Positions 6,506 to 44,088 of a DNA stretch of 44,088 nucleotides are shown here, one piece after another (positions within the stretch are counted from its first letter, which is position 1; the number at the start of each line of letters is the position of its first letter). The DNA comes from Meridianimarinicoccus zhengii (lineage in GTDB: Bacteria > Pseudomonadota > Alphaproteobacteria > Rhodobacterales > Rhodobacteraceae), in assembly GCF_003254465.1 (NCBI RefSeq), contig NZ_QDFI01000034.1:1-44088 (forward strand), in the 5' to 3' direction. The notes beneath the pieces are model-generated. The model was not told the DNA's origin. It did not search any database and worked only from the letters and a program-made list of their open reading frames with translations. A program made the translations under genes and the position numbers.

Positions 6506-6508
6506 CGG

Positions 6509-8768: not shown

Positions 8769-8803
8769 GGCACGACCATGCGCGCGACGGGCGGCAAAGA
8801 CCA

Positions 8804-8827: not shown

Positions 8828-8834
8828 GGGGGTG

Positions 8835-16369: not shown

Positions 16370-24387
<8,018 letters not shown>

Positions 24388-24406
24388 TGGAGCCGGCTCG
24401 GGAATG

Positions 24407-24424
24407 TGTCAACTATAACTTACA
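24407..24424. promoter_or_regulatory. PpsR box in front of bchF
   Basis: An exact TGT-N12-ACA palindrome, the consensus of the PpsR/CrtJ aerobic repressor. On the bchF strand the box contains TATAGT (5 of 6 to a -10 element) about 25-30 bases before the start codon, so bound PpsR would cover the core promoter. A perfect 10-base palindrome TGTCCGGACA at 24429-24438 lies beside it. Confidence 0.8.
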
Positions 24425-24535
24425 GCTTTGTCCGGACATCGTCGGTTCGCCAGACGTCACGCATCGCGGCGGATTTCTTTTAAAGTGCTGCTACTAAATG
24501 ACAAATATTTCGACACCGCGTTTCGGCCCGCGAAA

Positions 24536-24574
24536 TGTCCATTGTCTTTGACATTCTGTCCCCTTTGGAGGACA
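24536..24574. promoter_or_regulatory. Tandem PpsR boxes and probable ppaA-ppsR promoter
   Basis: Two exact TGT-N12-ACA boxes, 24536-24553 and 24557-24574, start 21 bases apart, two helical turns. A perfect -35 hexamer TTGACA (24548-24553) ends the first box; at 17 bases spacing the weak -10 (GACACT) falls at the end of the second. PpsR binding would therefore block this promoter. With the box at 24407 this gives a near pair plus a distal site, suited to co-operative binding or looping. Confidence 0.78.
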
Positions 24575-24637
24575 CTTTCTTCAGCCGGTTTGCGCGCTTG
24601 CCAGATCGTGCGCGACCCACCCGCAAGGAGGCATCGG

Positions 24638-25429: not shown

Positions 25430-25437
25430 CGCGCCCC

Positions 25438-26874: not shown

Positions 26875-26875
26875 C

Positions 26876-26957
26876 TGTCAGCGTGACGTGACAGTCTGTC
26901 TGTCAGTCTGGCGTTACTTTTTCTTGTGTCGACTCGGTCTGTCAGTCTAGCTTGACA
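26876..26957. promoter_or_regulatory. PpsR box cluster in front of bchG
   Basis: Exact TGT-N12-ACA boxes at 26876-26893 and 26940-26957, with a one-mismatch copy (final ACT) at 26901-26918. Part of the region is a direct repeat: TCTGTCAGTCTRGC occurs twice, 39 bases apart. The first box begins one base after the ppsR stop and the last ends two bases before the bchG ATG. No Shine-Dalgarno sequence is seen before bchG, and only weak promoter hexamers can be drawn. Confidence 0.78.
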
Positions 26958-26959
26958 GC

Positions 26960-27880: not shown

Positions 27881-29178
27881 CCGTGCCGGGAACGCTGGGT
27901 TGGGCCGGGATCGTCCGGCTGGGGCTGGTGCAGATGGCGCTGGGGGCTGTCGTTGTGCTGTGCACCTCGACGCTCAACCGTCTGATGGTGGTCGAACTGG
28001 CGCTGCCTGCGCTGCTGCCCGGTTTCCTCGTGGCGCTGCATTACGGCATCCAGATCAGCCGCCCGCGCTGGGGTTTCCTGTCGGATACGGGCGGGCACCG
28101 GACCCGCTGGATCCTGCGCGGGATGGCGCTGCTGGCGGCGGGGGCGGTGCTCGCCGCGCTTGGCGTGGTGTGGCTGGAGCACAGTTTCCTGCCGGGGCTC
28201 GTGCTGTCCATCGCGGCCTATGCTCTGATCGGTGTGGGGGTCGGCGCGTCGGGCACGTCGCTGCTGGCGTTGCTGGCGACCGCCACCGCGCCGCGCCGTC
28301 GGGCGGCGGCGGCAACGATCACCTGGCTGATGATGATCGCGGGCATCGCGCTGACCGCGGGCTTCGTGGGCGCGCTGCTCGATCCCTACGGCCCCGCGCG
28401 GCTGATGACCATCGTGGCCGCCGTCGCCGCCAGTGCGATGGTGCTGAGTTTGCTGGCCACTTGGCGAATCGAAGCCGGGTTGACCGCGACTGCGCCCGAA
28501 CGTGACCCGATGCCCTTCCGCGACGGGCTGTGCGAGATCTGGGGCGAGCCGCGCGCGCGCGCCTTCACCATCTTCGTCTTCCTGTCGATGACCGCGTATT
28601 TCATGCAGGAACTGATCCTGGAACCTTACGCGGGTCTCGTCTTCGGGTTCACGCCGGGGCAGTCCACCTCGCTGTCGGGCGCGCAGAACGGGGGCGTGTT
28701 CCTCGGCATGCTCTGCGTCGGCATCGCCGCCACGGGGCTGAAGATCGGCAGCCTGCGGGGCTGGGTCACCGCCGGGTGTCTCGGCTCCGCCACGGCGCTG
28801 GCGCTGGTGGCCGCACTGGGGCAGGCGGGACCGGTGGTCCCGCTGATGGCCGTGGTGATCGGGCTGGGCTTCTTCAACGGTGTCTTCGCCGTCGCGGCCA
28901 TCGGGTCGATGATGGCGCTGGCCGGGCAGGGCCGCGGCGCGCGCGAAGGCACGCGCATGGGGCTGTGGGGCGCCGCGCAGGCGATCGCCGCGGGGTTCGG
29001 TGGCCTTGCGGGGGCGGCGGGCGTGGACCTCATGCGCCTGTTCCTGCCCGACCCGGCCGCCTTCGGCACGGTTTTCCTGTTCGAGGCGGCGCTGTTTCTT
29101 GCCGCCGCCGCCATGGCCCTTCGGGTGATCGCCCACGGCCCCACATCCATTGCCGCTCAGGCCATTGCTGGAGAATGA
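27877..29178 (+). CDS. bch2: BCH2/PucC-family membrane protein (orf428 type)
   Basis: A 433-residue, 12-helix protein of the LhaA/PucC/Bch2 branch of the major facilitator superfamily; STLNRLMVVELALPALLPG and RPRWGFLSDTGGHRTRW are the shared marks. The equivalent gene stands between bchG and bchP in Rhodobacter (orf428), and its role in pigment delivery or assembly is inferred from its paralogues. The ATG overlaps the bchG stop; a long upstream extension of the same frame is non-coding. Confidence 0.9.
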   Translation: MTVPGTLGWAGIVRLGLVQMALGAVVVLCTSTLNRLMVVELALPALLPGFLVALHYGIQISRPRWGFLSDTGGHRTRWILRGMALLAAGAVLAALGVVWLEHSFLPGLVLSIAAYALIGVGVGASGTSLLALLATATAPRRRAAAATITWLMMIAGIALTAGFVGALLDPYGPARLMTIVAAVAASAMVLSLLATWRIEAGLTATAPERDPMPFRDGLCEIWGEPRARAFTIFVFLSMTAYFMQELILEPYAGLVFGFTPGQSTSLSGAQNGGVFLGMLCVGIAATGLKIGSLRGWVTAGCLGSATALALVAALGQAGPVVPLMAVVIGLGFFNGVFAVAAIGSMMALAGQGRGAREGTRMGLWGAAQAIAAGFGGLAGAAGVDLMRLFLPDPAAFGTVFLFEAALFLAAAAMALRVIAHGPTSIAAQAIAGE

Positions 29179-29180
29179 CC

Positions 29181-30359
29181 ATGTATGATGTCGTCGTCGT
29201 GGGCGGGGGGCCGTCCGGTGCCACCGCGGCCGAGGATCTGGTTCGCTCCGGCGCGCGCGTGGCGCTGCTGGACCGCCAGGGCCGTATCAAGCCCTGCGGT
29301 GGCGCGATCCCGCCCCGGCTGATCGCGGATTTCGACATCCCGGACGAGCAGCTCGTGGCAAAGATCACCACGGCGCGCATGATCTCGCCCACGGGCCGCG
29401 CGGTGGACATCCCCATCGAGAACGGCTTCGTCGGCATGGTGGACCGCGAACATTTCGACGCCTTCCTGCGCGACCGCGCGACAGCGGCGGGGGCTGACAT
29501 GCGGATCGGCACCTTTCTGCGGGTCGAACGGGACGATGCGGGCACGCGGGTGATCTATCGCGACAAGGCCAGCGGCGACGAACGCGGCCTGCCCACGAAA
29601 CTGGTGATCGGCGCGGATGGCGCGCGGTCGCGGGTGGCGGCGGCGGAACTGCCGGGCGGCTCGAAGATCCCCTATGTCCTTGCGTATCACGAGATCATCG
29701 AGGCACCGGGCGCCGTGGGCGCCTATGACCCCGCGCGCTGCGACGTGATCTATGACGGCGCGATCTCGCCCGATTTCTATGGCTGGGTCTTCCCCCATGG
29801 CGGGCAGGCGAGCGTCGGCATGGGCACCGCGGTGGACGGCGTGGACCTGAAGGCTGCCACGGCCGCCCTCCGCGTCGCTTCGGGGCTGGAGGGCCGCACG
29901 ACCATCCGGCGCGAGGGCGCGCCCATCCCGCTCAAGCCGCTGGACCGCTGGGACAACGGGCGCGACGTGGTGCTTGCGGGCGACGCGGCGGGCGTCGTGG
30001 CGCCGTCCTCGGGCGAGGGGATCTACTACGCCATGATCGGCGGGCGTGTCGCCGCCTCGGCCTGCATGGCCGTGCTGGCGACAGGCAACGTGGCGCGGCT
30101 GAAACTGGCGCGGCAACTGTTCATGAAGGAGCACAAGACCGTGTTCCGGGTGCTGGCCTCGATGCAGAACGCTTACTACCGTAGCGACGACCGGCGCGAA
30201 CGCTTCGTGTCGCTGTGCCATGACATCGACGTGCAGCGCCTGACCTTCGAGGCATACATGAACAAGAAGCTGGTAGCTGCGCGCCCCATGGCCCATGTGA
30301 AGATCGGGCTGAAGAACCTGGCGCATCTGACGGGGCTGGTGAAACCGGGATATGTGTGA
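29181..30359 (+). CDS. bchP: Geranylgeranyl reductase (bacteriochlorophyll tail)
   Basis: FAD-dependent enzyme that reduces the geranylgeranyl tail to phytyl in three steps. The 392 residues begin with the Rossmann motif VVVVGGGPSGATAA and contain the family segment RIKPCGGAIPPRL. Later come GADGARSRVA and the second FAD motif VVLAGDAAGVVAPSSGEGIYYAM. GGAG at 29170-29173 has normal spacing to the ATG at 29181; an in-frame ATG at 29175 overlaps the bch2 stop but lies too close to that site. The isopentenyl isomerase gene (idi) that often follows is not present. Confidence 0.95.
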   Translation: MYDVVVVGGGPSGATAAEDLVRSGARVALLDRQGRIKPCGGAIPPRLIADFDIPDEQLVAKITTARMISPTGRAVDIPIENGFVGMVDREHFDAFLRDRATAAGADMRIGTFLRVERDDAGTRVIYRDKASGDERGLPTKLVIGADGARSRVAAAELPGGSKIPYVLAYHEIIEAPGAVGAYDPARCDVIYDGAISPDFYGWVFPHGGQASVGMGTAVDGVDLKAATAALRVASGLEGRTTIRREGAPIPLKPLDRWDNGRDVVLAGDAAGVVAPSSGEGIYYAMIGGRVAASACMAVLATGNVARLKLARQLFMKEHKTVFRVLASMQNAYYRSDDRRERFVSLCHDIDVQRLTFEAYMNKKLVAARPMAHVKIGLKNLAHLTGLVKPGYV

Positions 30360-30668: not shown

Positions 30669-32177
30669 TCAACCGATATGCCATGCCGTCAGCCGCCTGT
30701 CCGCACGGGTCATGCGCAGATCGAGCATCCGCGCGCGCATGTCGGCCACGCGGGGGGCGAGTGCCGGGTCACCTGCAAGGTTGCGCGCCTCGTCCGGGTC
30801 CGCGCGCCGGTCGAACAGCATGGGCGGCAGGCCGCCGTTGAAATGCACCAGCGTCCAGTCCCTGTCGCGCAGCACCGCCGCATTGGCGCGGTGTTCGTCG
30901 AGCCCAAGTGCGGTCTGGAACCGGGTCGGCGCGTGCGGCTCGGCCAGGTCGATTTCCGACAGCACCGCGTCGCGCCAGTCCGGGGGCGTGTCCCCGTGCA
31001 GCAGCGGCAGCAGCGACGCGCCGTCCATCGCCGGTGGCGGCGTGCCGCCCGCCATGTCGATCAGCGTCGGCGCGATATCGACCGACGACACGAACGCATC
31101 CCGCACGGTGCCGCCCGGCAGGCCGGGCATCCGGATCAGCAGCGGCACATGGTGTGCAGCCACTGCCACGTTGTCCTTGCCCCAATAGCCCATGTCGCCC
31201 AGCATCTCGCCATGGTCGGCCATCACGATCACCGCGGTCCGGTCCGCGATCCCCGCGGCATCGAGCCAGTCGAACAGACGCCCGAGGTGAAAATCGACCT
31301 CGGCCACCAGACCCAGATAGACCGCCCGCAGGGTCTGTGCCGTCGCCGCATCCATGTCCGCGCAGTCGCCGTCGAACCGGTGCCAAAGCCCCGCCTGTGC
31401 GGGGGCGGAAAACCAAGCGCGGCGGAACGGGTGGTCGGGGCCACCCGCCGCCACCGGCGCAGGCACGGCGCCGGGCGCCACGTGGCGGTTCCACGGGTCC
31501 GGGGCCGACAGCGGCGGGTGCGGGCGGATATAGGTGACATGGGCCGTCCAGACCGTATCGCGCCGGGCCTCCAGCGCATCGATCACGCGGTCGGTCAGGA
31601 ACGCGGTCTCGCTGTCTTCCGCCCGGATCGCCAGCGGGTCGTCTGGGCGCGCGGTGCGGCCCGCGGGCGGGATCGGGCGATACAGGTCGAACCAGCGGTC
31701 GGGCAGGGGACTTGGCATGTCGTAGCCCTTGCTGCGCAAGTATCCGATCCAGGCCAGTGGTGATTCGAACCGCATCTCCAGCAGTTCGCGGAAGCCCGCC
31801 GCGGGCATCTCGTAGCTGGCGAAATCCGGGTCGGCCAGATCGCGCCCAGTCGGGTCCGCCGCGACGTCGTTATAGCCGAACAGCAGCGGCTCGCGCCCCA
31901 GCTTGCGCCATTCGGTCGCCACGGTGGCGTGGTGGCGCGCAAGCGGCGTGCCGTTGCGGATGGACCGGTGATTGAAGGCGTAAAGCCCGGTCAGCAGGCT
32001 GGCGCGCGACGGGCCGCACGGCACCGTCGCGGTGAAGCACTGGTCGAACCGCACGCCTTCGGCGGCAAGCCGGTCGAGCGTCGGGGTCGCCGCGATGCCC
32101 GCCAGACGCCCGGCGACCACGTCGGCGCGCAACTGGTCGAGCGTGACGAACAGGATGTTCAGGCGGTCAGGCGTCAC
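30669..32177 (-). CDS. Phosphonate monoester hydrolase-like sulfatase-superfamily enzyme
   Basis: A 502-residue alkaline-phosphatase-superfamily hydrolase. Cysteine 54 in TVPCGPSRASLLTG fits the CxPxR rule for conversion to formylglycine, the nucleophile. Metal-site residues are seen at D14 (VTLDQLRAD), ADHGEMLGD and WGKDN; the active-site asparagine is likely N75 (RNGTPL). The region around C54, the segment LVHFNGGLPPMLFDRRADPDE and the end ADRRLTAW resemble rhizobial and Burkholderia phosphonate monoester hydrolases as remembered, more than choline sulfatase. The start is GTG, overlapping phnX by 11 bases. In this operon it probably releases 2-aminoethylphosphonate from an ester. Formylglycine-generating enzyme is not encoded here. 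Confidence 0.75.
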   Translation of the reverse strand: MTPDRLNILFVTLDQLRADVVAGRLAGIAATPTLDRLAAEGVRFDQCFTATVPCGPSRASLLTGLYAFNHRSIRNGTPLARHHATVATEWRKLGREPLLFGYNDVAADPTGRDLADPDFASYEMPAAGFRELLEMRFESPLAWIGYLRSKGYDMPSPLPDRWFDLYRPIPPAGRTARPDDPLAIRAEDSETAFLTDRVIDALEARRDTVWTAHVTYIRPHPPLSAPDPWNRHVAPGAVPAPVAAGGPDHPFRRAWFSAPAQAGLWHRFDGDCADMDAATAQTLRAVYLGLVAEVDFHLGRLFDWLDAAGIADRTAVIVMADHGEMLGDMGYWGKDNVAVAAHHVPLLIRMPGLPGGTVRDAFVSSVDIAPTLIDMAGGTPPPAMDGASLLPLLHGDTPPDWRDAVLSEIDLAEPHAPTRFQTALGLDEHRANAAVLRDRDWTLVHFNGGLPPMLFDRRADPDEARNLAGDPALAPRVADMRARMLDLRMTRADRRLTAWHIG

Positions 32178-32955
32178 CGTCGAGGCGGTCCAAGAGGGCG
32201 GGCAGGTCCGCCACCGTGTCGATGACGTGATCGGCCCCCGCCGCGTGCAGACGGTCTGCCGCCAAGGAGCGCAGGTCTGCGACCTCGGCTTCGGATTTCG
32301 CGGCCAGTTCCTTAGGTGTCAGCCCCACGAAATTGCCCGACAACGCCACGCCCACGGTCAGGCAGCCCGCGGCGACGCCTTCGGCAATGCCGGGTTCGGT
32401 GTCGTCCACCTTCACCACCGCGGCGGGCGGATAGACACGCAGGTCAATGAAGCACTGATACATCCCCAGCGGGCCGGGACGGCCTTCGGACAGGTCGTCG
32501 GCACAGACGAGGTTGTCGGGCGCGTAGCCCTGTTCGGCGGCGCGCGGCAGGACCCGTTCCATGATCGACCGGACATAGCCCGTGGTGGACCCGATCTTCA
32601 GCCCGCGCGCCCGCAGCGCCGCCACGGTTTCCGCGCCTTGCGGCACCAGGTCGGCGTAGCGCGCGACGACCTCTTCGTTCATGGGCACGAACACCTTGTA
32701 GATCGTGTCGGCATCGGCATCGGTCGGGGCCGCGCCATGGGCGGCCTGCCACTGTGCGGCGATGTCGGGATCGTTCAGCATGGTGCGGATATGGTCCCAT
32801 TTCGGCAGGCCCATGGGGGCGCGGGCCTGTGCCACGCTCGCCGTGACGTCGAAGCGCGCGAAGGCTTCGACGAAGACCCCCATGGGCGCGAAGGACCCGA
32901 AATCGATCATGGTGCCCGCCCAGTCGAACACCACCGCCTTGAACCGCTGCATCAT
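32167..32955 (-). CDS. phnX: Phosphonoacetaldehyde hydrolase (phosphonatase)
   Basis: Cleaves the C-P bond of phosphonoacetaldehyde to acetaldehyde and phosphate. The 262-residue HAD-superfamily protein has the nucleophile aspartate D11 in VFDWAGTMIDFGS and the Schiff-base lysine K52 in MGLPKWDH, which separates PhnX from ordinary HAD phosphatases. GSTTGYVRSIM and VKVDDTEPGIAEG are further family marks. The start overlaps the phnW stop by four bases, so the two consecutive enzymes are translationally coupled. Confidence 0.95.
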   Translation of the reverse strand: MMQRFKAVVFDWAGTMIDFGSFAPMGVFVEAFARFDVTASVAQARAPMGLPKWDHIRTMLNDPDIAAQWQAAHGAAPTDADADTIYKVFVPMNEEVVARYADLVPQGAETVAALRARGLKIGSTTGYVRSIMERVLPRAAEQGYAPDNLVCADDLSEGRPGPLGMYQCFIDLRVYPPAAVVKVDDTEPGIAEGVAAGCLTVGVALSGNFVGLTPKELAAKSEAEVADLRSLAADRLHAAGADHVIDTVADLPALLDRLDGDA

Positions 32956-34139
32956 GCCACCTCTGCCAGAAAGCGCGCGCGTTCCTGCATGTCCCTGTCA
33001 GACGGTGCCGCGCTGCGCACCCCCATATCCCTCAGCACCTCGGCCACCGCCGTCACGACGGCATCCATCACGCCCGTGTCGAACCGCCCGATGGTGCCCA
33101 CCCGGAAACTGTCGGCCACGGTCAGCTTGCCGGGATAGAGGATGAACCCCCGCGCCTTCATCCGGTCGTAGAAATCTGCGAAGCTGAAGGCCGGGTCGGC
33201 CGGGCAGAAGAAGGTCGTGATGATCGGCGACAGCCAGTCGTCGGCCAGCAAGGTCTCGAAACCCAGCCCCCGCATCCCCGCCACCAGCCGGTCGCGGTTC
33301 GCGGCATAGCGCGCGCCGCGCGCCGCGACCCCGCCCTCCGCCGCGTGCTCGTCCAGCGCCTGCAGGAAAGCTGCGACCGCATGAGTCGGCGGGGTGAACC
33401 GCCACTGGCCGGACCGCTCCATCTCGGCCCATTGCGCATGGGCGTTGAGGCTGAGCGAGGTCGCGTTGCGCGCCGCGCCATCCAGCACGTCCCGCCGCGC
33501 CAGCAGGAAACCGAACCCCGGGACCCCTTCGATGCATTTGTTGGCCGACGAAACCACTGCGTCGAACGCGATCTCGGACGGCATCACCGGCACGGCACCG
33601 AAGGCCGACATGCTGTCGATAAGGAGCCGCCGCCCTGCCGCCTGCGTTGCCGCGGCGATCTCGGCCAGCGGATTGAGGATACCGCTGGAGGTTTCGCAAT
33701 GGATCGCAACGACATGGGTGATGGACGGATCGGCGGCGAGGGCTGCCGCGACCTCGGTCCCGCGCGGCGGTAGGTAATCGCCCTTGTCGATCACCTCCGC
33801 CGCCCGGCCCATCTGGCGCAGGATGCGCGCTGCGCGTTGCCCGTAGGCGCCGTTCGCCAGCACGAGCGCGCGCCCGTCGCGCGGGACCAGCGTGCCCAGC
33901 ATCGCCTCCACGCAATAGGTGCCGGACCCTTGCAGCGGCACGCAGGTATAGTCGCCGCCCCCGTCGTCCAGCATCGCCACCAGCCGCGTGCGCAGGGTGG
34001 CGGTCATGGCGCGGAAGTCGCCGTCCCAACTGCCCCAGTCGCGCAGCATGGCGGCCTTCACGGCGTAAGAGGTGCTGAGCGGCCCGGGCGTCAGCAGCCA
34101 GGGTTCGCCCATACGCGGCGGCTCGATGGTGAGGGTCAT
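32952..34139 (-). CDS. phnW: 2-aminoethylphosphonate:pyruvate aminotransferase
   Basis: PLP enzyme that converts 2-aminoethylphosphonate and pyruvate to phosphonoacetaldehyde and alanine, the first step of the phosphonatase pathway. The 395 residues show LLTPGPLSTS at the N-terminus, the substrate region LQGSGTYCVEAML, PLP-contacting D175 (LLIDSMSAFG) and the cofactor lysine K201 (SSANKCIEGVPG). The ATG overlaps the stop of the upstream ATPase gene (ATGA), a direct sign that transporter and catabolic genes form one transcript. The C-terminus is some 25 residues longer than in common PhnW. Confidence 0.95.
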   Translation of the reverse strand: MTLTIEPPRMGEPWLLTPGPLSTSYAVKAAMLRDWGSWDGDFRAMTATLRTRLVAMLDDGGGDYTCVPLQGSGTYCVEAMLGTLVPRDGRALVLANGAYGQRAARILRQMGRAAEVIDKGDYLPPRGTEVAAALAADPSITHVVAIHCETSSGILNPLAEIAAATQAAGRRLLIDSMSAFGAVPVMPSEIAFDAVVSSANKCIEGVPGFGFLLARRDVLDGAARNATSLSLNAHAQWAEMERSGQWRFTPPTHAVAAFLQALDEHAAEGGVAARGARYAANRDRLVAGMRGLGFETLLADDWLSPIITTFFCPADPAFSFADFYDRMKARGFILYPGKLTVADSFRVGTIGRFDTGVMDAVVTAVAEVLRDMGVRSAAPSDRDMQERARFLAEVA

Positions 34140-35260
34140 TGCGCAGGTTCCGGAATATGGAGGTCGGCGGGTGCTTCGGCGCGTCCGAAGTCGAAGGTTT
34201 CGGCGTGGTGGCAGGCGACGTGATGGCCGGGTGCGATCTCGCGCCAGCGGGGTTCCTCGGCGCTGCACCGGTCGGTGGCGAAGGGGCAGCGGGTGTGAAA
34301 CCGGCAGCCGGGCGGAGCGTCGGCGGGGTTCGGGATCTCGCCCTCCAGCCGGTCGGGGGCGAAGACCGCATCGGGGTCGGCCAGCGGTACCGCTGACAGA
34401 AGCGCATGGGTGTAGGGGTGGCGCGGGCGGAAGAACAATTCGCGCGTGGGGGCGTATTCCACGAACTTGCCCACATACATCACTGCGACCCGGTGGCTGA
34501 TCTGGGCCACCACCGACAGGTCATGGGCGATGAACAGGAAGGACACGCCCATCTCGTCCTGCAGGTCCTTCAGCAGGTTGATGATCTCGGCCTGGATCGA
34601 CACGTCGAGCGCCGACACGCTTTCGTCGCACACCACGAAATCGGGTCGGGCCACCAGCGCGCGGGCGATACATATGCGCTGGCGCTGCCCGCCGGAGAAC
34701 GCGTGCGGAAAGCGGCGCAGATGTTCGAGGTTCAGCTTGCACCGCGCGGCGATGTCGCGCACGCGGGCGTCGATCTCGGCCCGGTCACGCATCAGCCCGG
34801 CGGCGACCAACGGTTCGGCGATGATGTCGCGCACGGTCATGCGCGGGTTCAGGCTGGAATAGGGGTCCTGAAACACGAGGCTCATGCGCGGGCGGAACGC
34901 GCGCAAGGCGGTGCCGCCAAGGCTGGCAAGGTCCAGCCCCCCTTCGCGGAACACCATCTGCAGCTTGCCGCGCACCTTGGACAATTCGGCGCGGTCCGCA
35001 TGAGTCAGGTCCAGATCGCCCGCCGCACCGTGATAGAGAACCCGGCCCCCCGTCGGCTCGATGGCGCGCAGGATCGCGCGGCCCACGGTGGTCTTGCCCG
35101 ACCCGCTTTCGCCGACCAGCCCCACGGTTTCGCCGCGCCTTATGTCGAAACTCACGCCATCGACCGCGCGCAACTGCCGTCGCTTGCCCGAGAAAAGCCC
35201 TTTGCGCCCGATCTCGAACGCAACTTCGAGGTTCTCCACTTCGATCAGGGTGTCGGTCAT
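34136..35260 (-). CDS. Opp/Dpp-type ABC transporter ATPase (DppF-like)
   Basis: A 374-residue ATPase of the oligopeptide class: Walker A GESGSGKTT (50-58), signature FSGGQRQRICIARAL, Walker B region FVVCDESVSALD and the C-terminal OppF-type cysteine region GCRFHTRCPFATDRC. It is unusual in having two copies of the stretch before the Q-loop: residues 81-106 and 107-132 align with each other, so the normal VFQDPYSSLNPR follows a decayed copy ending VFRE. It overlaps phnW and the other ATPase gene by four bases each. It powers uptake together with its partner ATPase. Confidence 0.92.
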   Translation of the reverse strand: MTDTLIEVENLEVAFEIGRKGLFSGKRRQLRAVDGVSFDIRRGETVGLVGESGSGKTTVGRAILRAIEPTGGRVLYHGAAGDLDLTHADRAELSKVRGKLQMVFREGGLDLASLGGTALRAFRPRMSLVFQDPYSSLNPRMTVRDIIAEPLVAAGLMRDRAEIDARVRDIAARCKLNLEHLRRFPHAFSGGQRQRICIARALVARPDFVVCDESVSALDVSIQAEIINLLKDLQDEMGVSFLFIAHDLSVVAQISHRVAVMYVGKFVEYAPTRELFFRPRHPYTHALLSAVPLADPDAVFAPDRLEGEIPNPADAPPGCRFHTRCPFATDRCSAEEPRWREIAPGHHVACHHAETFDFGRAEAPADLHIPEPAQ

Positions 35261-36264
35261 GCCACGGCCCTCGCGCGGTCGTGCAGGTGGCAGCGCACGG
35301 ACTGCCCGCCGCCCAGCCGCGTCAGCGGGGGTGGCGTGCGGTCGCAGACCCCTAGGATCGCCTGCGCGCAGCGGCTGCGGAACGGGCAGCCCGATGGCCG
35401 GGCGGAGGGGCTTGGGATTTCGCCGGGCACGGGTGTCAGGCGGTTGTCGATCCGGTCAAGCCGCGGGATCGCCGCGATCAAGCCCTGCGTGTAGGGATGC
35501 GCGGGGGTTTTCAGCAACTGCCGCACCGGCCCCTGCTCGACGATGGTCCCAAGGTACATCACCGCCACCTCATCGGCGACCTGCGCGATCACGCCCAGAT
35601 CATGGGTGATGAAGATCATCGCCATCCCGAGGTCGCGTTGCAGCCCCGCCATCAGGTCCAGCACCTGTGCCTGGATCGTCACGTCGAGCGCGGTCGTGGG
35701 TTCGTCCGCGATCAGAAGCCGCGGGCCTGCCGACAGCGCCAGCGCGATCATCGCGCGCTGCCGCATGCCGCCCGACAGTTCGTGCGGATACTGGTCCACC
35801 CGCGCGGCGGGGTTCGAGATGCCGACCTTGGTCAGCATCTCCACCGCCAGGTCGCGCGCCGCCGCCCCGCGCAGGCCCTTGTGCAGCCGGATCGTTTCCA
35901 TGATCTGGTTGCCGATGGTGTAGACGGGCGAAAAGCTCGCCATGGGTTCCTGGAAGATCATCCCGATCTCGCCGCCGCGCAGCCGCCGCAGCGCGCGCGC
36001 ACCGGGGCGCAGGGCGTGAACGTCGATCCGCGCCCCGTCGCGGTCGGTAAAGGCGATGCAGCTCTGGTCCCCGATCCGCGCGCTGACGGGCAGGAGCCGC
36101 ATCACCGCCTTTGTGCTGACCGACTTGCCCGACCCGCTTTCACCGACGATCCCCAGCGTGCGCCCCGCATCGACGCCGAAGCTGACGCCCTGCACCGGGG
36201 TGATGAGCCCTTCGTCGGTGCGGAACGACACGGTCAGGTTCTCGACCTCCAGCAACCGGCCCAT
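35257..36264 (-). CDS. Opp/Dpp-type ABC transporter ATPase (DppD-like)
   Basis: A 335-residue ATPase with Walker A GESGSGKS, Q-loop MIFQEPMASFSPVYTIG, signature LSGGMRQRAMIALAL, Walker B LLIADEPTTALD and the C-terminal cysteine motif GCPFRSRCAQAILGVC typical of OppD/DppD. The ATG is chosen at MGRLLEVENL; a very long open frame upstream is antisense-type noise. It lies 5 bases after the DppC-like permease gene and overlaps the second ATPase gene. Confidence 0.92.
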   Translation of the reverse strand: MGRLLEVENLTVSFRTDEGLITPVQGVSFGVDAGRTLGIVGESGSGKSVSTKAVMRLLPVSARIGDQSCIAFTDRDGARIDVHALRPGARALRRLRGGEIGMIFQEPMASFSPVYTIGNQIMETIRLHKGLRGAAARDLAVEMLTKVGISNPAARVDQYPHELSGGMRQRAMIALALSAGPRLLIADEPTTALDVTIQAQVLDLMAGLQRDLGMAMIFITHDLGVIAQVADEVAVMYLGTIVEQGPVRQLLKTPAHPYTQGLIAAIPRLDRIDNRLTPVPGEIPSPSARPSGCPFRSRCAQAILGVCDRTPPPLTRLGGGQSVRCHLHDRARAVA

Positions 36265-36269
36265 CGCGC

Positions 36270-37424
36270 TTACCCCGCCTGTCCGTAAGGGTCGGCCGCG
36301 TCGCGCAGTCCGTCGCCCACGATGGTGAAGGCCAGAACCGCCAGCACCACGAAGCCGGCGGGGATGAACAGCCACGGCGCCTGTTCGATCACCTGCACCG
36401 ATTGCGCCTGTTGCAGCATCACGCCCCATGACACGGCGGGCGGGCGCAGCCCCAGCCCGACGAAGGACAGCGCAGTTTCCGACAGGATCATGTAGGGGAA
36501 CGAGATCACCAGATCGACGATGATGAAGCTGGTGAAGCTGGGCAGCATGTGGCTGCCGATGATCCGCGCGGGCCGGGCGCCCGCCAGTTGTGCGGCCAGC
36601 ACGTAATCCTCCCCCCGGATCGACAGAAGCTGGCTGCGGATGCGCCGCGCCAGCGTCGGCCAGCCGAACAGGCCAAGGATCAGGGTCATGGCGAAATAGA
36701 CCTGCGTGGAGGACCATTCCTTCGGCATCGCCGCCGCGAGACCCATGTAAAGCGGGATGATCGGGATGACGCGCACCACCTCGGTCACGCGCTGGATGGC
36801 GCTGTCGATCAGCCCGCCGAAATACCCCGCGACCCCCCCGATCACGAGCGCCAGCACGAAGGAGATCAGCACCCCCAGCACCCCGATCGACAGCGAGGTG
36901 CGCGTGGCGTAGAGCGTGCGCGAGAACACGTCGCGGCCCAGCGTGTCGGTGCCCCACAGGTGCAGTTGCGCGCCATCCTCCAGCCCGAAGAGCCGGGTCG
37001 AGATGGGGATCGCCCCCAGCAGCATCGCCGGTTCGCCCGGCACGAAGAACGCGACATGGCGGCGTGTCTCCGGGTCCGGCTCCGCGGTGGCGCGCAGCGT
37101 TACGGGATCGCGCACGGTGCGGGTGCCGTGCACGAAGGGGCGCAGCGAACAGCCGTTCTGGTCGCAGAACATCGGCACCTGCGGCGGGCCGCTGACATAG
37201 TCGCGGTTGCGTTCGGTCGGTCCGTAGGGCGCGAAGAACTCGGCGAAGAGGCCCAGGAACGCCATGGTCAGCAGGATCGCCGCGCCCGCCATCGCCGCCC
37301 GGTGCCGCCGGAACCGCCACCAGATCAGCGTCCATTGCGAGGCCGCGTAATAGCGTTCGCGTTTCTCGCGTTCGCGGCGTTCGGCCGTGGTCTCCAGCGG
37401 CGTCTGCGGGTCCATCACGGTCAT
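36270..37424 (-). CDS. ABC transporter permease (DppC/OppC-like, large periplasmic loop)
   Basis: A 384-residue inner-membrane permease. After a basic cytoplasmic N-terminus comes one helix (AAMAGAAILLTMAFLGLF). A periplasmic loop of roughly 100 residues follows, with two cysteines (CDQNGC), then five helices. The ATPase-coupling EAA region is SEDY-like (IRGEDYVLAAQLAGARPARI). The loop ends with GTDTLGRDVFSRTLY, standard for OppC. The large loop marks a subfamily seen with big binding proteins, often oligosaccharide or complex-substrate importers. Three bases separate it from the DppB-like gene. Confidence 0.9.
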   Translation of the reverse strand: MTVMDPQTPLETTAERREREKRERYYAASQWTLIWWRFRRHRAAMAGAAILLTMAFLGLFAEFFAPYGPTERNRDYVSGPPQVPMFCDQNGCSLRPFVHGTRTVRDPVTLRATAEPDPETRRHVAFFVPGEPAMLLGAIPISTRLFGLEDGAQLHLWGTDTLGRDVFSRTLYATRTSLSIGVLGVLISFVLALVIGGVAGYFGGLIDSAIQRVTEVVRVIPIIPLYMGLAAAMPKEWSSTQVYFAMTLILGLFGWPTLARRIRSQLLSIRGEDYVLAAQLAGARPARIIGSHMLPSFTSFIIVDLVISFPYMILSETALSFVGLGLRPPAVSWGVMLQQAQSVQVIEQAPWLFIPAGFVVLAVLAFTIVGDGLRDAADPYGQAG

Positions 37425-37427
37425 GGT

Positions 37428-38420
37428 TCAGCCCCCCAGCCGGATGCGCGGGTCGAGCCACGCCAGAAGCAGGTCCGACACGAAATTCATCACCACGATC
37501 ACCACGGTCAGCATCAGCAGGATCGCGCCCGCGACGTTCATGTCGAGATCGAGAAAGCTTTTCAGCAGCAGGTCGCCCAGTTCGGTCAGCCCCAGCACCG
37601 CCGCCACGATGGGCAGCTCCGAAAAGATCCGGTTCACGTCGAAACCGATGGTGGACACCACCGGGTTCAGCGCCAGCCGCGCGGGATACTTCAGCAGCAG
37701 GCGCGTTTCCGGCACACCGCGCGCGCGGGCGGCGGTCACGTTCAGCTTGCCGATCTCGTCGGACATGGTCGCGCGCACGGTCTGGATCTGATAGGCCATC
37801 GCCGACCAGCCCAGCACCAGCGCGGGCAGCCACATGTGTTTCATCAGGTCCCACAGCTTGGCGGCGGACCAGGGCGCCTCGGCATATTCCGCGCTGAACA
37901 GTCCGCCCACGGACGCGCCGAACCACAGGTTCGCAAAGTAAAGCAGCACCAGCGCCAACAGGAAATTCGGCAGCGCGAGGCCCAGATAGGAAAACAGCGT
38001 CAGCCCGTAATCCGCCGCCCCGCCCCGGCGCACGGCGGCATAGATGCCGATGGGCACCGAAATCAGGTAGGTGATGATGAGCGTGGCGAACAGCAGCCCC
38101 AGCGTCAGCCAGACCTTCTGCCCGATCACGTTGTTGACGGAGGTGTCGAAGGCATAGGCCTGCCCGAAATCGCCGCGCAGCACGATGCCGGATATCCAGT
38201 CGAAATACCGCACGACCGCGGGCTGGTCGAGCCCAAGCTCCGCCCGGATCGCCGCGATATCGGCGGGTGTGATGGTCACGCCCGTGCCGGAAAACTTGCG
38301 GAAGGCATAGCGTTCCGCGAAATCGCCCGGCGGCAGTTCCATGATGAAGAACACCATGACGGACACCATGAACAGCGTCACGATCATCCCGAAAGAGCGT
38401 TCTGCAAGGAAGCGGACCAT
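37428..38420 (-). CDS. ABC transporter permease (DppB/OppB-like)
   Basis: A 330-residue permease with six membrane helices: MVRFLAERSFGMIVTLFMVSVMVFFIM is the typical OppB/DppB N-terminus. WISGIVLRGDFGQAYAF and the coupling region VTAARARGVPETRLLLKYPAR are also family marks. It is the first permease after the binding-protein gene and is separated from it by 59 bases containing a strong hairpin. Confidence 0.93.
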   Translation of the reverse strand: MVRFLAERSFGMIVTLFMVSVMVFFIMELPPGDFAERYAFRKFSGTGVTITPADIAAIRAELGLDQPAVVRYFDWISGIVLRGDFGQAYAFDTSVNNVIGQKVWLTLGLLFATLIITYLISVPIGIYAAVRRGGAADYGLTLFSYLGLALPNFLLALVLLYFANLWFGASVGGLFSAEYAEAPWSAAKLWDLMKHMWLPALVLGWSAMAYQIQTVRATMSDEIGKLNVTAARARGVPETRLLLKYPARLALNPVVSTIGFDVNRIFSELPIVAAVLGLTELGDLLLKSFLDLDMNVAGAILLMLTVVIVVMNFVSDLLLAWLDPRIRLGG

Positions 38421-38443
38421 GGGGCGGCTCCGGTCTCAGGGGG

Positions 38444-38471
38444 GCACCCCCGCCCCGCGGGGCAGGGGTGC
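38444..38471 (-). promoter_or_regulatory. Intercistronic hairpin between binding-protein and permease genes
   Basis: A near-perfect GC stem (7 bp, one mismatch, then 5 bp around GC) fills the gap after the binding-protein stop. No T-run follows on the minus strand. In ABC-importer operons such hairpins often protect the upstream message, so that binding protein is made in excess over membrane parts; that role is inferred here. Confidence 0.6.
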
Positions 38472-38479
38472 AGGTCGGA

Positions 38480-40540
38480 TCAGTTCTCGGCCAGGAACCA
38501 CTGCTGCGGACGGTAGGGATAGGTCCAGTAGAAGTCATAGGTCTTGGCCGTCAGCGGCTTGAGGTTCTGCAGATCGTTGCGATGGACGTAAGGCGACGGG
38601 ATGTCCGCGATCACGCCGACCTTCAGCAGGTTGTCCACGTGGATATCGACGATCTCCGCCCCGATCCGGTCGCTTTCGGCGCTGCCCAGCGGCTGGGTCA
38701 GGAACTGGCCGGCCAGGTCCCACAGCGACAGGATGTCGGCGGGCGGCTCCGTGCCTTCGGCGCCTTCCGTGTTCACCCAGGTCGCCCAGTCGAAGCCGCC
38801 GCCGGGGTTGAAGAAGTCGCCGAAGGGCGGCACCAGCATGGTCGCGTCCTGGCTGATGAACGGCCCCGAGATGCCGTCGTTCTTCCAGATGAACACATCC
38901 ACCTCGTTGCTGTTGGCCGAGGAGCGGTATTCGTCCGACGTGACCTCGCGGATGTCCACCTGAATGCCGAGATCCGACCAGTAGTCGCGGGTCAGTTCGT
39001 GCAGCTGCACCGGCGAGCCCTGGCTGGCGAAGACGATCCGCACCACCAGCGGCGCGCCGTCCGGGCGGCGGCGCACACCATCGGACCCGCGCTCCAGCCC
39101 CATCTCGTCCAGAAGCGCGTTCGCGCGCGCCGGGTCATGGTCGATGAACGCGGTGACATGATCCACGGTCACGAAGTTCACCGTCGCGGGTTCGGCGGGC
39201 ACCGATTGTGACGGCCGCCCTTGCCCGAGATAGACGATCTCCTTGATCTCTTCGCGGTCCATGCCCAGCGACATCGCCTGGCTGAAGCGCACGTCGTTGA
39301 AGATCGTGCGCAGCACCGGGTCCTTGTGGTTGCGGTTGAAGCCGTAATAGACCGTTTCCCCCAGCGTGGGCGCCAGCGTCGCGGTGTAGCCGCCGCGCGC
39401 CTCGTTTTCCTTCAGCAGCGGGAAGTCGTTCAGTTCCAGTGCCTGCTGCTTGAACACCACCTCGCCGTTGAGGATGCGCAGGTTCACGACCTCGCGCTCG
39501 GGCACGTAATCCTCGCGGATTTCCGGGATATAGGGCAACTGGTGGCCCGCCGTGTCCACCATGTGGAAATAGGGGTTGGCGACCAGGCGGCGGCCCTCGG
39601 TATTCTCCTCGACGACGATATGGCTTTCCAGCGTCGGCACCGCGTTGGCGCCGATGGCGGCGGCCTTCTCCGCGTCTTTCATCATCGCGGACGGCACGTC
39701 CTTCCAGTCGGAATTGCCGTAGTAGAAATTCACCGCCTCGCCTTCGCTGGCAAAGCCGTGCTCGGCGCGCAGTGCCGCGGCGTCCGCGTTGTACTTGTCC
39801 ATGAACCGGCCAAGGAAATGGCGCGGCTGGAAGGTTTGGCCGTAATCCACCGCCCAGCGGTTCAGCAGGTTCGGCTGCGGGCTGGCGAAGGTGAAGGTCA
39901 CGGTCACGTCATCCACCGCCTCGACCACCGCGGGTTCACCGCCGAACAGCCAGCGGTCGGGGGTCTTTTCGGTCACCGCCGGGTTCAGCAGGATGTCGTT
40001 GTACCAGAACGCGATGTCATGGGCGGTGAAGGGCGCACCGTCCGACCACTTGTGCCCCGCGCGCAGGGTGAAGGTCAGCTGGGTATAGTCGTCGTTCCAG
40101 GACCAGGACTTTGCCACGTTCGGCACGATGGTCTTCAGGTCGTCCGCATAGCGCACGAGGTTCACATGCCGGAACGACAGCATGTCGGATGTGCCCGATT
40201 CCGTGCCGCGCGACACGCCGGTGATGACACCGCCATAGCTGCCGATCGCCGCGTAGGGGGCCACGACCAGCGGCTCGGCGGGCAGGCGGTCGGCCAGCGG
40301 CGGCAGGTCCGGATTGCCGAGGATGCGGGCGTTCAGATCCGCGATGTCCGGGTTTTCCACGAAGGCGAGATCGCAGGACGCGGCGGCCTCGAACTCGGCC
40401 AGCTCGAACTGCTGCGGGAAGGCCGGGGTTAGCCCCTGCATGTCGGCCACGGTCACGGGCGGGCAGTCTGCCAGCGCGGCACCTGCGGCGAAACCTGAAG
40501 TCACGCCCAGAAGAAGGCGCGCACGGATCGAAAGGGTCAT
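38480..40540 (-). CDS. Periplasmic substrate-binding protein, SBP family 5, large
   Basis: A 686-residue extracytoplasmic binding protein, longer than the 500-550 of DppA/OppA. The signal peptide is MTLSIRARLLLGVTSGFAAGAALA, and GGAGC just upstream supports this ATG over one 51 bases earlier. The family 5 core is clear: LAKSW-type AKSWSWNDDYTQLTFTLR, HKWSDGAPFTAHDIAFWYND and FSQAMSLGMDREEI. An N-terminal stretch of about 80 residues precedes the core. It defines the specificity of the importer; the ligand is unknown, but co-transcription with phnW and phnX suggests a phosphonate conjugate. Confidence 0.9.
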   Translation of the reverse strand: MTLSIRARLLLGVTSGFAAGAALADCPPVTVADMQGLTPAFPQQFELAEFEAAASCDLAFVENPDIADLNARILGNPDLPPLADRLPAEPLVVAPYAAIGSYGGVITGVSRGTESGTSDMLSFRHVNLVRYADDLKTIVPNVAKSWSWNDDYTQLTFTLRAGHKWSDGAPFTAHDIAFWYNDILLNPAVTEKTPDRWLFGGEPAVVEAVDDVTVTFTFASPQPNLLNRWAVDYGQTFQPRHFLGRFMDKYNADAAALRAEHGFASEGEAVNFYYGNSDWKDVPSAMMKDAEKAAAIGANAVPTLESHIVVEENTEGRRLVANPYFHMVDTAGHQLPYIPEIREDYVPEREVVNLRILNGEVVFKQQALELNDFPLLKENEARGGYTATLAPTLGETVYYGFNRNHKDPVLRTIFNDVRFSQAMSLGMDREEIKEIVYLGQGRPSQSVPAEPATVNFVTVDHVTAFIDHDPARANALLDEMGLERGSDGVRRRPDGAPLVVRIVFASQGSPVQLHELTRDYWSDLGIQVDIREVTSDEYRSSANSNEVDVFIWKNDGISGPFISQDATMLVPPFGDFFNPGGGFDWATWVNTEGAEGTEPPADILSLWDLAGQFLTQPLGSAESDRIGAEIVDIHVDNLLKVGVIADIPSPYVHRNDLQNLKPLTAKTYDFYWTYPYRPQQWFLAEN

Positions 40541-40611
40541 GGCTTGCTCCGTTGAAAAAGTTGCGTTCACCATGAAAACACCCTGTGACAATTCAATGAA
40601 ATTCCCAAACT

Positions 40612-40626
40612 ATAGACAAATCCTAT
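40612..40626. promoter_or_regulatory. Probable LysR-type regulator site
   Basis: ATAG-N7-CTAT is a 15-base inverted repeat containing the T-N11-A core of LysR-family sites. It overlaps the stop codon of the LysR gene and lies 72 bases upstream of the binding-protein start, a suitable place for control of the transporter genes. It is the only AT-rich stretch nearby. Confidence 0.5.
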
Positions 40627-41519
40627 TGTTTGGCATGGCGCGCCTGCGGGAAATGCTGCGCCGTCAGGGCGAACAAGGCCGCGACCGGCGCGACATTGCG
40701 CATCTCGGGCAGACAGACGAGGAAATGGCCGACCTCCAGCGCGGGATCGCGAATCGGCAGGGCGCTGATCTGGGTGTCGGCCGGGTCGATCTCGCCGTCC
40801 ATGGCGATACCGCAGCCGATGCCTTCGATCACGGCGCCGCGCAGGGATTCCCACGACCCGAGGTCCAGCAGGTGCCGCATCGGCAGGCCCGATGCCTGTG
40901 CTGCGCGGTCGAACACGATGCGCGTGCCGGAACTCGCCTCGCGCCGGATCAGCCCGACCGTGGCGACATCCGCCCAGTCCAACGCATCGCGCGCCAGCAG
41001 CGGGTGGCCCACGGGCATCATCAGCACGATCCTGTCGCGGCGCAGTTCCAGCGCGGTCAGGTCCGGGTCGGGGGCGGGCAGGGTGACGAACGCCGCCTCG
41101 ATCTCGCCCCGGCGCAGCAGGTCCAGAAGGTCCGCCGACGCCTGCGAGCGCGCCTCGATCCGCAGCCCCGGATGGCGCGCGATGAAGGCCGACAGCAGCG
41201 ACATGACGAACTGGTGGGTGGAATAGCCGATGCTCAGCCGGCCCGCATCGAGCGAACTGGTGCGGTCGAGCATCGTTTCCATCTCGCCCACCAACGCCAG
41301 CGCGGCGCGCATCCGCGGCAAGAGCGACAATGCCACGGGGCCGGGCAGCATCCGGTGGCCTTCACGCTGGAACAGCCGCAGGTGATAGCGGTCCTCGATC
41401 TGGCGCAGCTGCGCCGAAACGGTGGGCTGGCTGACGCCCAGATCGCGTGCCGCTGCCCCCACCGCGCCAGTGCGGCAGATGGCTTCGATGATGCGGATCT
41501 GTGGCAGCGTCAGCGACAT
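40623..41519 (-). CDS. LysR-family transcriptional regulator
   Basis: A 298-residue regulator with an N-terminal winged helix-turn-helix (LPQIRIIEAICRTGAVGAAARDLGVSQPTVSAQLRQIE) and a LysR ligand-binding domain (from GRLSIGYSTHQFVMSLL). It stands upstream of, and in the same direction as, the transporter-phosphonate operon, 82 bases away, so it is the likely local regulator responding to the substrate or a breakdown product. Divergent arrangement is more common for LysR genes. The start at MSLTLPQ fits the fold; in-frame codons upstream look non-coding. Confidence 0.88.
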   Translation of the reverse strand: MSLTLPQIRIIEAICRTGAVGAAARDLGVSQPTVSAQLRQIEDRYHLRLFQREGHRMLPGPVALSLLPRMRAALALVGEMETMLDRTSSLDAGRLSIGYSTHQFVMSLLSAFIARHPGLRIEARSQASADLLDLLRRGEIEAAFVTLPAPDPDLTALELRRDRIVLMMPVGHPLLARDALDWADVATVGLIRREASSGTRIVFDRAAQASGLPMRHLLDLGSWESLRGAVIEGIGCGIAMDGEIDPADTQISALPIRDPALEVGHFLVCLPEMRNVAPVAALFALTAQHFPQARHAKQ

Positions 41520-42865: not shown

Positions 42866-43831
42866 TCATTCGAACTCCATCTCCGTATAGACCACGCCCG
42901 CGTTCTTCGTCGCCAGCTCTTCGAACGTATCCAGATGGGCATAGGGCGACTGGTCCACGTAATAGGCGTCGGCCAGCGTGCCGCCATTGTCCAGATGCTC
43001 GGCGATCTTTTCGCGCAGGTAGACGAGGTAATCGTGGGTGTAGCGGCGCACCTGCGCCATGTTCGTCGGGTGCCCGTGGCCGGGGATCACGTAGGTGGCA
43101 CCAAGCGGTTCGAACGCGGTCTCCCATGTCTCGATCCAGCAGCTTGTGCAGGTATCGCCGAAAATGGGCGGCATGCGTTCGTGAAAGGCGATGTCGCCCG
43201 CGATCACCAGACCCTGGTCCGGCAGCCAAACCTGGATGTCGCCCGGCGAATGGGCGGGGCCGAGATGGAGCACCTCGATGCGCATGTCGCCCATCTCGAT
43301 CACCTCGCGGTCGGTGAAGGTGCGCGCGGGCAACTGGACCCGGGTCGGTCCCGCCCGGTCGCCCGCGTAATTGTGCAAGGCCTCAAGCCCCTGTGCACCG
43401 CGGTCTTCGAATTCATGCGCCGCGTCGGCATGGGCGAGGATCTCCACCCCCTGGTCGGCCCAGTAGCCGTTGCCGAGCATCGCGTGGCCCTGGCCGTTCT
43501 CGTTGATGACAAGCCGCACGGGCTGGTCGGTCACAGCGCGGATCTCGTCGTGCAGGGCGGCGGCCAGGGTGTCGGACGCGCCCGCGTTGACGACGACCAC
43601 CCCGTCGCCGGTCACGATGAAGCTCAGGTTGTTGTTGTGCCCGGCATTGTCATAGGTCGGCGGTGCGGTGGCGCCGATGGCGGTGAAGACATGGGGGATG
43701 ACCTCCACCGGCTTGTTGTAGAGCGCGGATTGCGGGTACTTGTCCGGAATGTCCTCGCTGGCCGGGGCAATGCCCGCCACTGCGGCCAGGCCGGCCGCCA
43801 GTGCGGCGGCGCATGCGATGCGTCGTGTCAT
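42866..43831 (-). CDS. Exported MBL-fold protein with altered metal motif
   Basis: A 321-residue metallo-beta-lactamase-fold protein with a signal peptide (MTRRIACAAALAAGLAAVAGIAPA); GGAGGAC just upstream fixes this ATG. The normal HxHxDH motif is replaced: INENGQGHAMLGN aligns with INTHxHxDHxxGN, leaving N112, Q114, H116 and A117. Later ligands seem kept (GPAHSPGD, IAGDIAFHE, IPGHGHPT), as does a CTSCW pair. It resembles SoxH/quinoprotein-relay MBL proteins in overall plan. It may be non-catalytic or bind metal differently. First gene of a three-gene operon. Confidence 0.8.
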   Translation of the reverse strand: MTRRIACAAALAAGLAAVAGIAPASEDIPDKYPQSALYNKPVEVIPHVFTAIGATAPPTYDNAGHNNNLSFIVTGDGVVVVNAGASDTLAAALHDEIRAVTDQPVRLVINENGQGHAMLGNGYWADQGVEILAHADAAHEFEDRGAQGLEALHNYAGDRAGPTRVQLPARTFTDREVIEMGDMRIEVLHLGPAHSPGDIQVWLPDQGLVIAGDIAFHERMPPIFGDTCTSCWIETWETAFEPLGATYVIPGHGHPTNMAQVRRYTHDYLVYLREKIAEHLDNGGTLADAYYVDQSPYAHLDTFEELATKNAGVVYTEMEFE

Positions 43832-44088
43832 GGGGTCCTCCTCCGTCATGCCGGACCAGTGTCACCCGATGGCGGTCAAGTTACCATATATTCCGATGCG
43901 TGCATTTCGTCGCGGGGCCGCACGGTGGCGGCGCGTCTGGGGTTCCGCCCTTCGCGGTCTTGCACCCGCGCCGCACGCTGCCCGCGCGCCCATGGATGGG
44001 AAGCTCCCGCCCGTCTTCGCCCCGGCGCTGCGCGCCCCGTCTCATCCCGCCCGGGCCGGGCGGCGCGTTTGCCGTGCCGCGTGTGGCC
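43832..44088. other. Right-edge non-coding sequence
   Basis: About 70 bases upstream of the MBL gene are comparatively AT-rich (around TTACCATATATTCC) and may carry its promoter. The rest is very GC-rich and holds no recognisable gene; an arginine-rich open frame running off the right edge from 43896 has no family features. Confidence 0.5.

Follow-up and report, generated by a model that had tools for sequence, protein, structure and literature searches.

The closest described relatives of the gene set reported here are the PhnWX pathway for 2-aminoethylphosphonate (AEP) with its AepR-type LysR regulator, and the ATP-binding cassette (ABC) importers AepXVW, AepSTU, PhnSTUV and PhnCDE, which are encoded with AEP or phosphonate genes. 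The available passages of PMC8316502 and PMC10574752 describe AepXVW, AepP, AepSTU, PhnCDE and PhnSTUV, and the AEP importers in the portions of the literature at hand are described for free AEP. The abstract of PMC6697681 relates much of bacterial phosphonate synthesis to AEP-decorated cell-surface molecules. For esters, passages of PMC5649143 on Sulfitobacter with C-P lyase suggest that phosphonate esters in marine polysaccharides may be cleaved by a phosphonate monoester hydrolase (PMH). We analyzed a 44,088-nt stretch of Meridianimarinicoccus zhengii (contig NZ_QDFI01000034.1; hereafter the window) and identified, at 30669-41519, a run of nine genes that joins an Opp-type importer to PhnW, PhnX and a PMH. 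We consider it fairly probable that this operon imports an AEP ester intact and degrades it in the cytoplasm, the ligand and the PMH activity both being predicted.

The locus shares with the PhnWX/AepR systems a PhnW and a PhnX that pass their family cut-offs and a LysR protein resembling TIGR03339, but it is extended by genes for an Opp-type importer and for an ester hydrolase, and its LysR scores below the family cut-off. Its importer is likewise an ABC system encoded with AEP genes, as are AepXVW, AepSTU, PhnSTUV and PhnCDE in the passages that treat them; going by those descriptions, it is set apart by its substrate-binding protein (SBP) of family 5, two permeases and two oligo_HPY ATPases. 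Phosphonate esters as a phosphorus source, with a PMH as the candidate ester cutter, are also proposed in the available text on Sulfitobacter. That text deals with methyl- and hydroxyethylphosphonate esters and C-P lyase, whereas the window combines AEP, PhnWX and an importer in one gene run.

The initial annotation had described a one-strand set leading from a regulator through the importer and phnW/phnX to the hydrolase with short gaps or overlaps, and this was confirmed by the open reading frames (ORFs) and family matches. All nine genes lie on the minus strand. The LysR-family regulator (40623-41519) is followed by the SBP (38480-40540), a 686-aa protein that appears to carry a signal peptide and whose mature part would be encoded by 38480-40468, and by Opp/Dpp-type permeases B (37428-38420) and C (36270-37424) and ATPases D (35257-36264) and F (34136-35260). 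The importer has the parts of an Opp/Dpp system, namely an SBP_bac_5 protein, BPD permeases of which one carries OppC_N, and two ATPases with oligo_HPY. PhnW, the AEP-pyruvate transaminase (32952-34139; NF010006, 530.6 bits against a cut-off of 296), and PhnX, the phosphonoacetaldehyde hydrolase (32167-32955; TIGR01422, 336.5 bits against 220), are adjacent and each exceeds its curated NCBIfam cut-off, as expected of a PhnWX pathway. The last gene (30669-32177) has a GTG start and encodes an enzyme of the PMH/phosphodiesterase type with Cys in the motif CGPSR. Refined starts were an ATG at 40540 for the SBP (an alternative, longer TTG ORF reaches 40591), at 36264 for ATPase D and at 34139 for PhnW. 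The ATGA overlaps claimed earlier for the ATPase-ATPase-phnW-phnX stretch proved real at D/F, F/PhnW and PhnW/PhnX; PhnX and the PMH overlap by 11 nt, and the permeases B and C and permease C and ATPase D are 3 and 5 nt apart, respectively. Larger gaps separate LysR from the SBP (82 nt, 40541-40622) and the SBP from permease B (59 nt, 38421-38479). The second of these, on the minus strand like the genes, holds a GC-rich inverted repeat, perhaps for differential expression.

The same gene order had been proposed as a search target in other genomes, and we found SBP-B-C-D-F-PhnW-PhnX-PMH again in six loci (L036, L037, L038, L047, L101 and L104). Operon-bearing relatives occur in Roseovarius, Roseibium and Ruegeria. 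The SBP-to-hydrolase order was also present, without the LysR gene, on a mobilizable plasmid that came from the intestine of a sea cucumber (L181, CP049030.1). Because the order recurs in six loci plus a plasmid, the layout is not due to chance, and chance adjacency of importer and phn genes was ruled out. On the plasmid, the transporter and the hydrolase carry generic annotation only.

We used the SBP as the query in GTDB species genomes (65 loci) and in 198 genomes from the same family as the window, with one genus code each. The resulting 125 loci (L036-L160) were reduced to 119 by removing four duplicates as well as L099 and L100, which have no SBP match. The SBPs fell into clade A, with ~58-78% identity to the window's protein, clade B, with ~44-50%, and clade C, the distant homologues with at most 34% identity, whose 25 loci are part of 42 such places listed. 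A quick tree of 113 SBPs, made after the removal of rows with stops or fewer than 500 aa and with the window's SBP added, split C from A and B at an SH-aLRT value of 100 and supported A alone at 91, with a long-branch warning; one row assigned to B (L084, from a Chloroflexi metagenome-assembled genome, MAG) fell outside both groups.

Esterase and AEP genes followed this division. Counting only well-flanked loci, which have at least 6.5 kb on either side of the SBP, an esterase was found in 12/20 clade A, 34/43 clade B and 1/22 clade C loci, and both an esterase and an AEP gene in 12/20, 13/43 and 0/22, respectively; no AEP gene occurred at the 22 clade C loci. With short contigs included, the corresponding numbers were 15/32, 41/62 and 1/25 for an esterase, 17/32, 17/62 and 0/25 for an AEP gene, and 14/32, 15/62 and 0/25 for both. 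None of the 25 loci of distant importers showed the link to PMH and PhnW.

Genome-wide occurrence pointed in the same direction. An SBP of clade A or B was present in 36 of the 198 family genomes. PhnW was found above its cut-off in 42 genomes, comprising 29 of the 36 with this SBP and 13 of the 162 without it (Fisher 2e-18); a PMH, counted at 270 bits or above, was found in 38, comprising 29/36 and 9/162 (Fisher 2e-20). PhnX was rarer (16/198 genomes, nine of them with an A/B SBP; p 4e-4). All these tests are one-sided and ignore kinship. The clade C SBPs showed no association with PhnW (p 0.26) or PMH (p 0.28) in the 198 genomes. The SBP and PMH lay within 25 kb of each other in 22 of the 29 genomes that carry both, which are all 22 that have both on one contig, and the SBP and PhnW in 17 of 29. 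Seven of the 36 genomes lacked PhnW, seven lacked a PMH and four lacked both (G063, G113, G127 and G195); in G113 and G127 the SBP lies close to a CehA-type gene (L112 and L113). The initial annotation had allowed that homologous importers might occur mostly without phn genes; what we found is that the A/B clade is tied to PhnW and PMH and the distant importers are not.

The binding proteins themselves differ between the clades. The A/B clade has a conserved N-terminal Cys pair and a segment with the clade consensus GTSDLLSVRHVN at the ligand-contact region, where T93, S98 and R100 were kept in 88/88 A/B rows, as were Q483 and E508 further along; R100 was found in 2/25 clade C rows. The nearest solved relatives are 5ipw, named oligopeptide-binding, and SPH1118 (7ver; 248 bits), a pectin-binding protein according to the available text of PMC9314435. 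SPH1118 and the clade C proteins share family and length with the window's SBP, which is distinguished from SPH1118 by its own segment, an extra N-terminal region with the Cys pair and the loss of Arg contacts. In a hand mapping on the alignment, Arg57 and Arg466 of SPH1118 fell on L97 and S511, Arg438 on Q483 and Arg496 on a non-Arg residue. The S511 position is Ser, Pro or Thr across A and B, and clade C keeps Arg in 13/25 rows at the Arg57 site and in 25/25 at the Arg466 site. This pattern argues against pectin and for one ligand class that A and B would have in common. No phosphonate-SBP model was among eight NCBIfam matches and Pfam gave SBP_bac_5 alone, a result that covers model matches and not a comparison with AepX or PhnS. 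Two plasmid records annotate SBPs of the A/B clade just as 'ABC transporter substrate-binding protein'.

The hydrolase matched solved PMHs best. Its highest PDB scores were for 4upk (420 bits), named a phosphonate monoester hydrolase, followed by 2vqr (307), 2w8s (303) and 4uph (298), with lower scores for 4upl (210), 4upi (199) and the choline sulfatase 6fny (88). We take 4uph to be a PMH, its PDB name being sulfatase. The PDB name of 2vqr is putative sulfatase, and the accessible part of PMC5066984 lists it as a PMH/phosphodiesterase. The equivalog model for PehA (NF045661) was matched at 393.9 bits, under its cut-off of 900. The window enzyme holds the catalytic Asp, Gln, Cys, Arg, Asn, Tyr, His, Asp-His and Lys residues, and it has Asp in place of Thr107 of RlPMH (Tyr-Asn-Asp), as does 4upk (Tyr-Thr-Asp). 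We compared 58 PMHs, of which nine belong to loci that lack this importer (L161-L163, L165, L167-L171). The catalytic Asp, Gln, Cys and Arg were kept in 57/57 sequences that cover them (L072 ends before the nucleophile), N75, H220, D321, H322 and K334 in 58/58, and Y102 and D104 in 55/58. The closest solved chains, 4upk, 2vqr (RlPMH) and 2w8s (BcPMH), thus have their catalytic residues in common with the window enzyme, but the literature on them uses model substrates in the passages available, whereas the gene of the window PMH lies in one run with those for AEP catabolism and for an importer. This operon setting suggests a natural substrate for PMHs.

Inspection of 40 PMH N-termini by eye revealed no obvious signal peptide. 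With an apparent signal peptide on the SBP and no obvious one on the PMHs, the ester would need to enter intact, and such import is in keeping with an Opp-type importer whose cleft is large.

The enzymes that accompany the importer were found to replace one another across loci. In five loci PhnW is replaced by a PbfD-type FAD enzyme next to PhnX, identified by TIGR03364 in L046 (463 bits, cut-off 285) and by similarity in L040, L050, L052 and L094. Several clade B loci have PhnW-PhnA-PhnY instead, often with PbfA (L105; NF049939, 664 bits, cut-off 525). The esterase varied as well, from the 4upk-like PMH of the window to a 4uph-like enzyme in L046 (574 bits) and a 2w8s/2vqr-like enzyme in L079 (471 and 462 bits). 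The hydrolases of L040, L046, L050, L052, L093 and L097 are 34-37% identical to the window's, and it was for that of L046 that the PDB comparison was made. In other loci the esterase is a CehA/McbA-type metallohydrolase (L044, 98 bits, cut-off 80; L045, L112 and L113 by similarity) or a PF01663 NPP-like protein (L061, 65 bits, cut-off 23; L087 and L091 by similarity). Across these loci, the steps of the pathway are conserved more than the genes. Such an exchange among esterases would be expected if ester cleavage were an obligatory step.

We propose the following route. The large SBP would capture an AEP monoester, perhaps AEP attached to a sugar fragment or the deacylated head group of a phosphonolipid, for instance glyceryl-AEP, and the ABC transporter formed by B, C, D and F would carry it in intact. 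The PMH, acting in the cytoplasm with an activity known for its family, would cut the P-O-C ester to give AEP and an alcohol. PhnW would then convert AEP and pyruvate to phosphonoacetaldehyde and alanine, and PhnX would cleave the C-P bond to yield acetaldehyde and phosphate, both steps being those of well-established families whose cut-offs are passed here. The LysR regulator, perhaps together with phosphate control, may switch the operon on. An esterified or conjugated AEP as the nutrient, and its import followed by ester cleavage, transamination and C-P cleavage, had been put forward from the window; both are supported by the clade-specific linkage, the esterase substitution and the PMHs that lack an obvious signal peptide. 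A phosphonopeptide, named there among the candidate nutrients, is not favoured, because no peptidase was found among the 20 annotated clusters of the 50 recurrent neighbour clusters (each in at least three loci). Two further loci were also noted. A Nitrospira MAG contig (L100, 6618-10186) has LysR, PhnW and PhnX, followed at the end of the stretch by a weak match, 40% identical, to the SBP N-terminus. Genome G138 has PhnW-PhnX-amidase-PMH and then a different SBP family 5 protein (L161, 7963-14822), perhaps a second and separate conjugate-uptake cluster, so that amide conjugates may be the nutrient in other systems.

Several observations weigh against the import and cleavage of an AEP ester. 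An AEP gene was local in only 13/20 clade A and 14/43 clade B well-flanked loci, and neither an esterase nor an AEP gene was local in 7/20 and 8/43 of them, or, with short contigs, in 14/32 and 19/62. We searched the rest of the genome for 14 of these 33 empty loci and found PhnW above its cut-off in nine (11 counting weaker matches) and a PMH-like protein at E <= 1e-60 in 11. In clade C, one locus (L152) has a CehA-type gene nearby on the opposite strand, and two (L139 and L145) have weak sulfatase matches of 28-29% identity under our 140-bit limit. Thirteen genomes with PhnW and nine with a PMH have no such importer. Genes are shared by descent, so the Fisher p-values overstate independence. 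The formylglycine-generating enzyme (FGE, PF03781) and the anaerobic maturase (TIGR03942) gave no match at E <= 0.001 in the window's genome, which is 99.97% complete, and a search of 30 of the 36 importer-clade genomes left 17 without PF03781. Given the conserved Cys, either another maturation route would exist or the Cys would act unmodified. In the window's genome (G000), we noted five Sulfatase-family matches despite the lack of an FGE or anaerobic maturase match. Finally, PMHs hydrolyse phosphodiesters too, as the available passages on them state, and some clade B loci carry genes of a different kind.

These clade B genes bear on what the importer recognises. Five loci (L119, L125, L130, L132 and L182, the last at 1600-8949) have a glutamine-synthetase-like gene with an aldehyde dehydrogenase and an Fe-alcohol dehydrogenase; L182 also has an N-formylglutamate amidohydrolase-like gene and a gamma-glutamyltransferase. 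We infer that this set may form an ethanolamine-type gamma-glutamyl route. Three loci (L063, L066 and L114) have a choline-dehydrogenase-type gene, six (L059, L060, L109, L116, L123 and L182) have an inositol-phosphatase-family gene with DeoR/GlpR-type regulators, and 26/62 clade B loci have an esterase and no local AEP gene. Together with the phosphodiesterase activity of PMHs, these genes speak for an importer that serves mainly glycerophosphoethanolamine or glycerophosphocholine, with the PMH as their phosphodiesterase and the phn genes as a second use. We regard this as unlikely, since PhnW is present in 29/36 genomes and clade A has PhnX in the same gene run. Moreover, PhnWAY in L125 and PhnY in L132 adjoin the amino-alcohol set, and part of that set (the glutamine-synthetase-like gene and the Fe-alcohol dehydrogenase) occurs in the AEP cluster of L178 without this importer. 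As AEP genes occur in this clade too, an aminoethyl-P-O-R head group would be what the loci have in common. PMHs are models of catalytic promiscuity. We entertain, tentatively, that the A and B importers recognise an aminoethyl-phospho/phosphono-diester head group, covering glyceryl-AEP and glycerophosphoethanolamine, and that the PMHs are cytoplasmic head-group (phosphono)diesterases. For the window's own clade A, an AEP ester is most likely the ligand.

Transport of free AEP, with the PMH as an accessory for esters that enter otherwise, seems quite improbable. Some clade members have no nearby esterase, and the abstracts at hand describe AEP as the commonest biogenic phosphonate. However, none of the described AEP importers (AepXVW, AepP, AepSTU, PhnCDE and PhnSTUV) is called Opp-type in the portions of text that treat them, the esterase is commoner than an AEP gene at well-flanked clade B loci, and the PMHs lack an obvious signal peptide. 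A true sulfatase together with an importer of a sulfated compound, placed beside phnWX by chance, is very improbable. The hydrolase does belong to the Pfam Sulfatase family, its relatives are annotated 'sulfatase-like', and the PDB names of 4uph and 2vqr point that way, but its scores against 4upk, 2vqr and 2w8s exceed those against 4upl, 4upi and 6fny, other phosphodiesterase types replace it, and its linkage with AEP genes is repeated. Least credible is an ordinary peptide or oligosaccharide importer with no functional link to the phn genes, which the names of 5ipw and SPH1118 would favour and which conflicts with the clade-specific linkage to PMH and PhnW, the Leu and Ser aligned with R57 and R466 of SPH1118, and the absence of a peptidase from the annotated neighbour clusters. 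On linkage, contact residues and PDB scores, both the sulfatase and the plain pectin or peptide importer were rejected.

For regulation, the best NCBIfam match of the window's LysR protein was TIGR03339, the AEP-associated LysR group, at 182.6 bits and below the cut-off of 341.1. A same-strand LysR gene precedes the SBP, or AEP genes upstream of the SBP, in 20/32 clade A loci, several of the others being incomplete. The LysR-SBP gap contains a Pho-box-like sequence, ATTTCATTGAATTGTCAC, on the minus strand ~62 nt before the SBP start, which agrees with the consensus at 10 of 14 bases. The consensus used is the one we take to be that of the Pho box, and the site could instead be a LysR site. Best sites scoring at least 10 on either strand occurred in 20/32 A, 21/60 B and 4/25 C loci versus 48/345 random internal stretches, counts that come from related loci and take match starts as gene starts. 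At a score of at least 12 the numbers were 8/60 for B versus 2/345, a score of 13/14 was reached in 7/60 B loci, and on the sense strand alone a score of at least 10 was reached in 19/32 A and 17/62 B loci. Pho-box-like sites above the controls in A and B, and not in C, are suggestive of phosphate control. Promoter and terminator scans performed no better than on shuffled sequences.

We also looked for earlier descriptions of such a system. The word 'oligopeptide' is absent from PMC8316502 and PMC10574752, and 'monoester' is absent from PMC10574752 and occurs once in PMC8316502, where it concerns C-O-P bonds generally; 'monoester' and 'sulfatase' are absent from PMC10590968 and PMC12366243. 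An arylsulfatase near phosphonate production genes is mentioned in the available text of PMC9381506, and a phosphodiesterase-type enzyme that possibly acts on phosphonate monoesters in that of PMC4744853, whose passages give no link to an importer. Among the titles and abstract openings listed, which left most subscription journals outside the scope, none joined an Opp-type importer, a PMH and PhnW. A literature search for glycerophosphoethanolamine together with glyceryl-AEP returned nothing of use.

Elsewhere in the window, the segment next to the operon (17426-30359) encodes a CobN/Mg-chelatase, a nitrogenase-like protein with a protochlorophyllide reductase domain, a PAS-Fis regulator and an FAD protein. 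We take these to be bacteriochlorophyll-type genes, and the host looks phototrophic. For a metallo-beta-lactamase-fold protein at 42866-43849, the closest models are those named 'quinoprotein relay system zinc metallohydrolase', whose cut-off it does not reach.

A conserved module of importer, esterase and C-P cleavage would show a scavenging route for bound AEP, and it would suggest a natural substrate for PMHs, a much-studied enzyme. If the importers do recognise the aminoethyl head group, the scavenging of phospholipids and phosphonolipids would share one route in mostly alphaproteobacterial lineages. The A/B binding-protein clade would serve as a marker for this capacity in ocean data.

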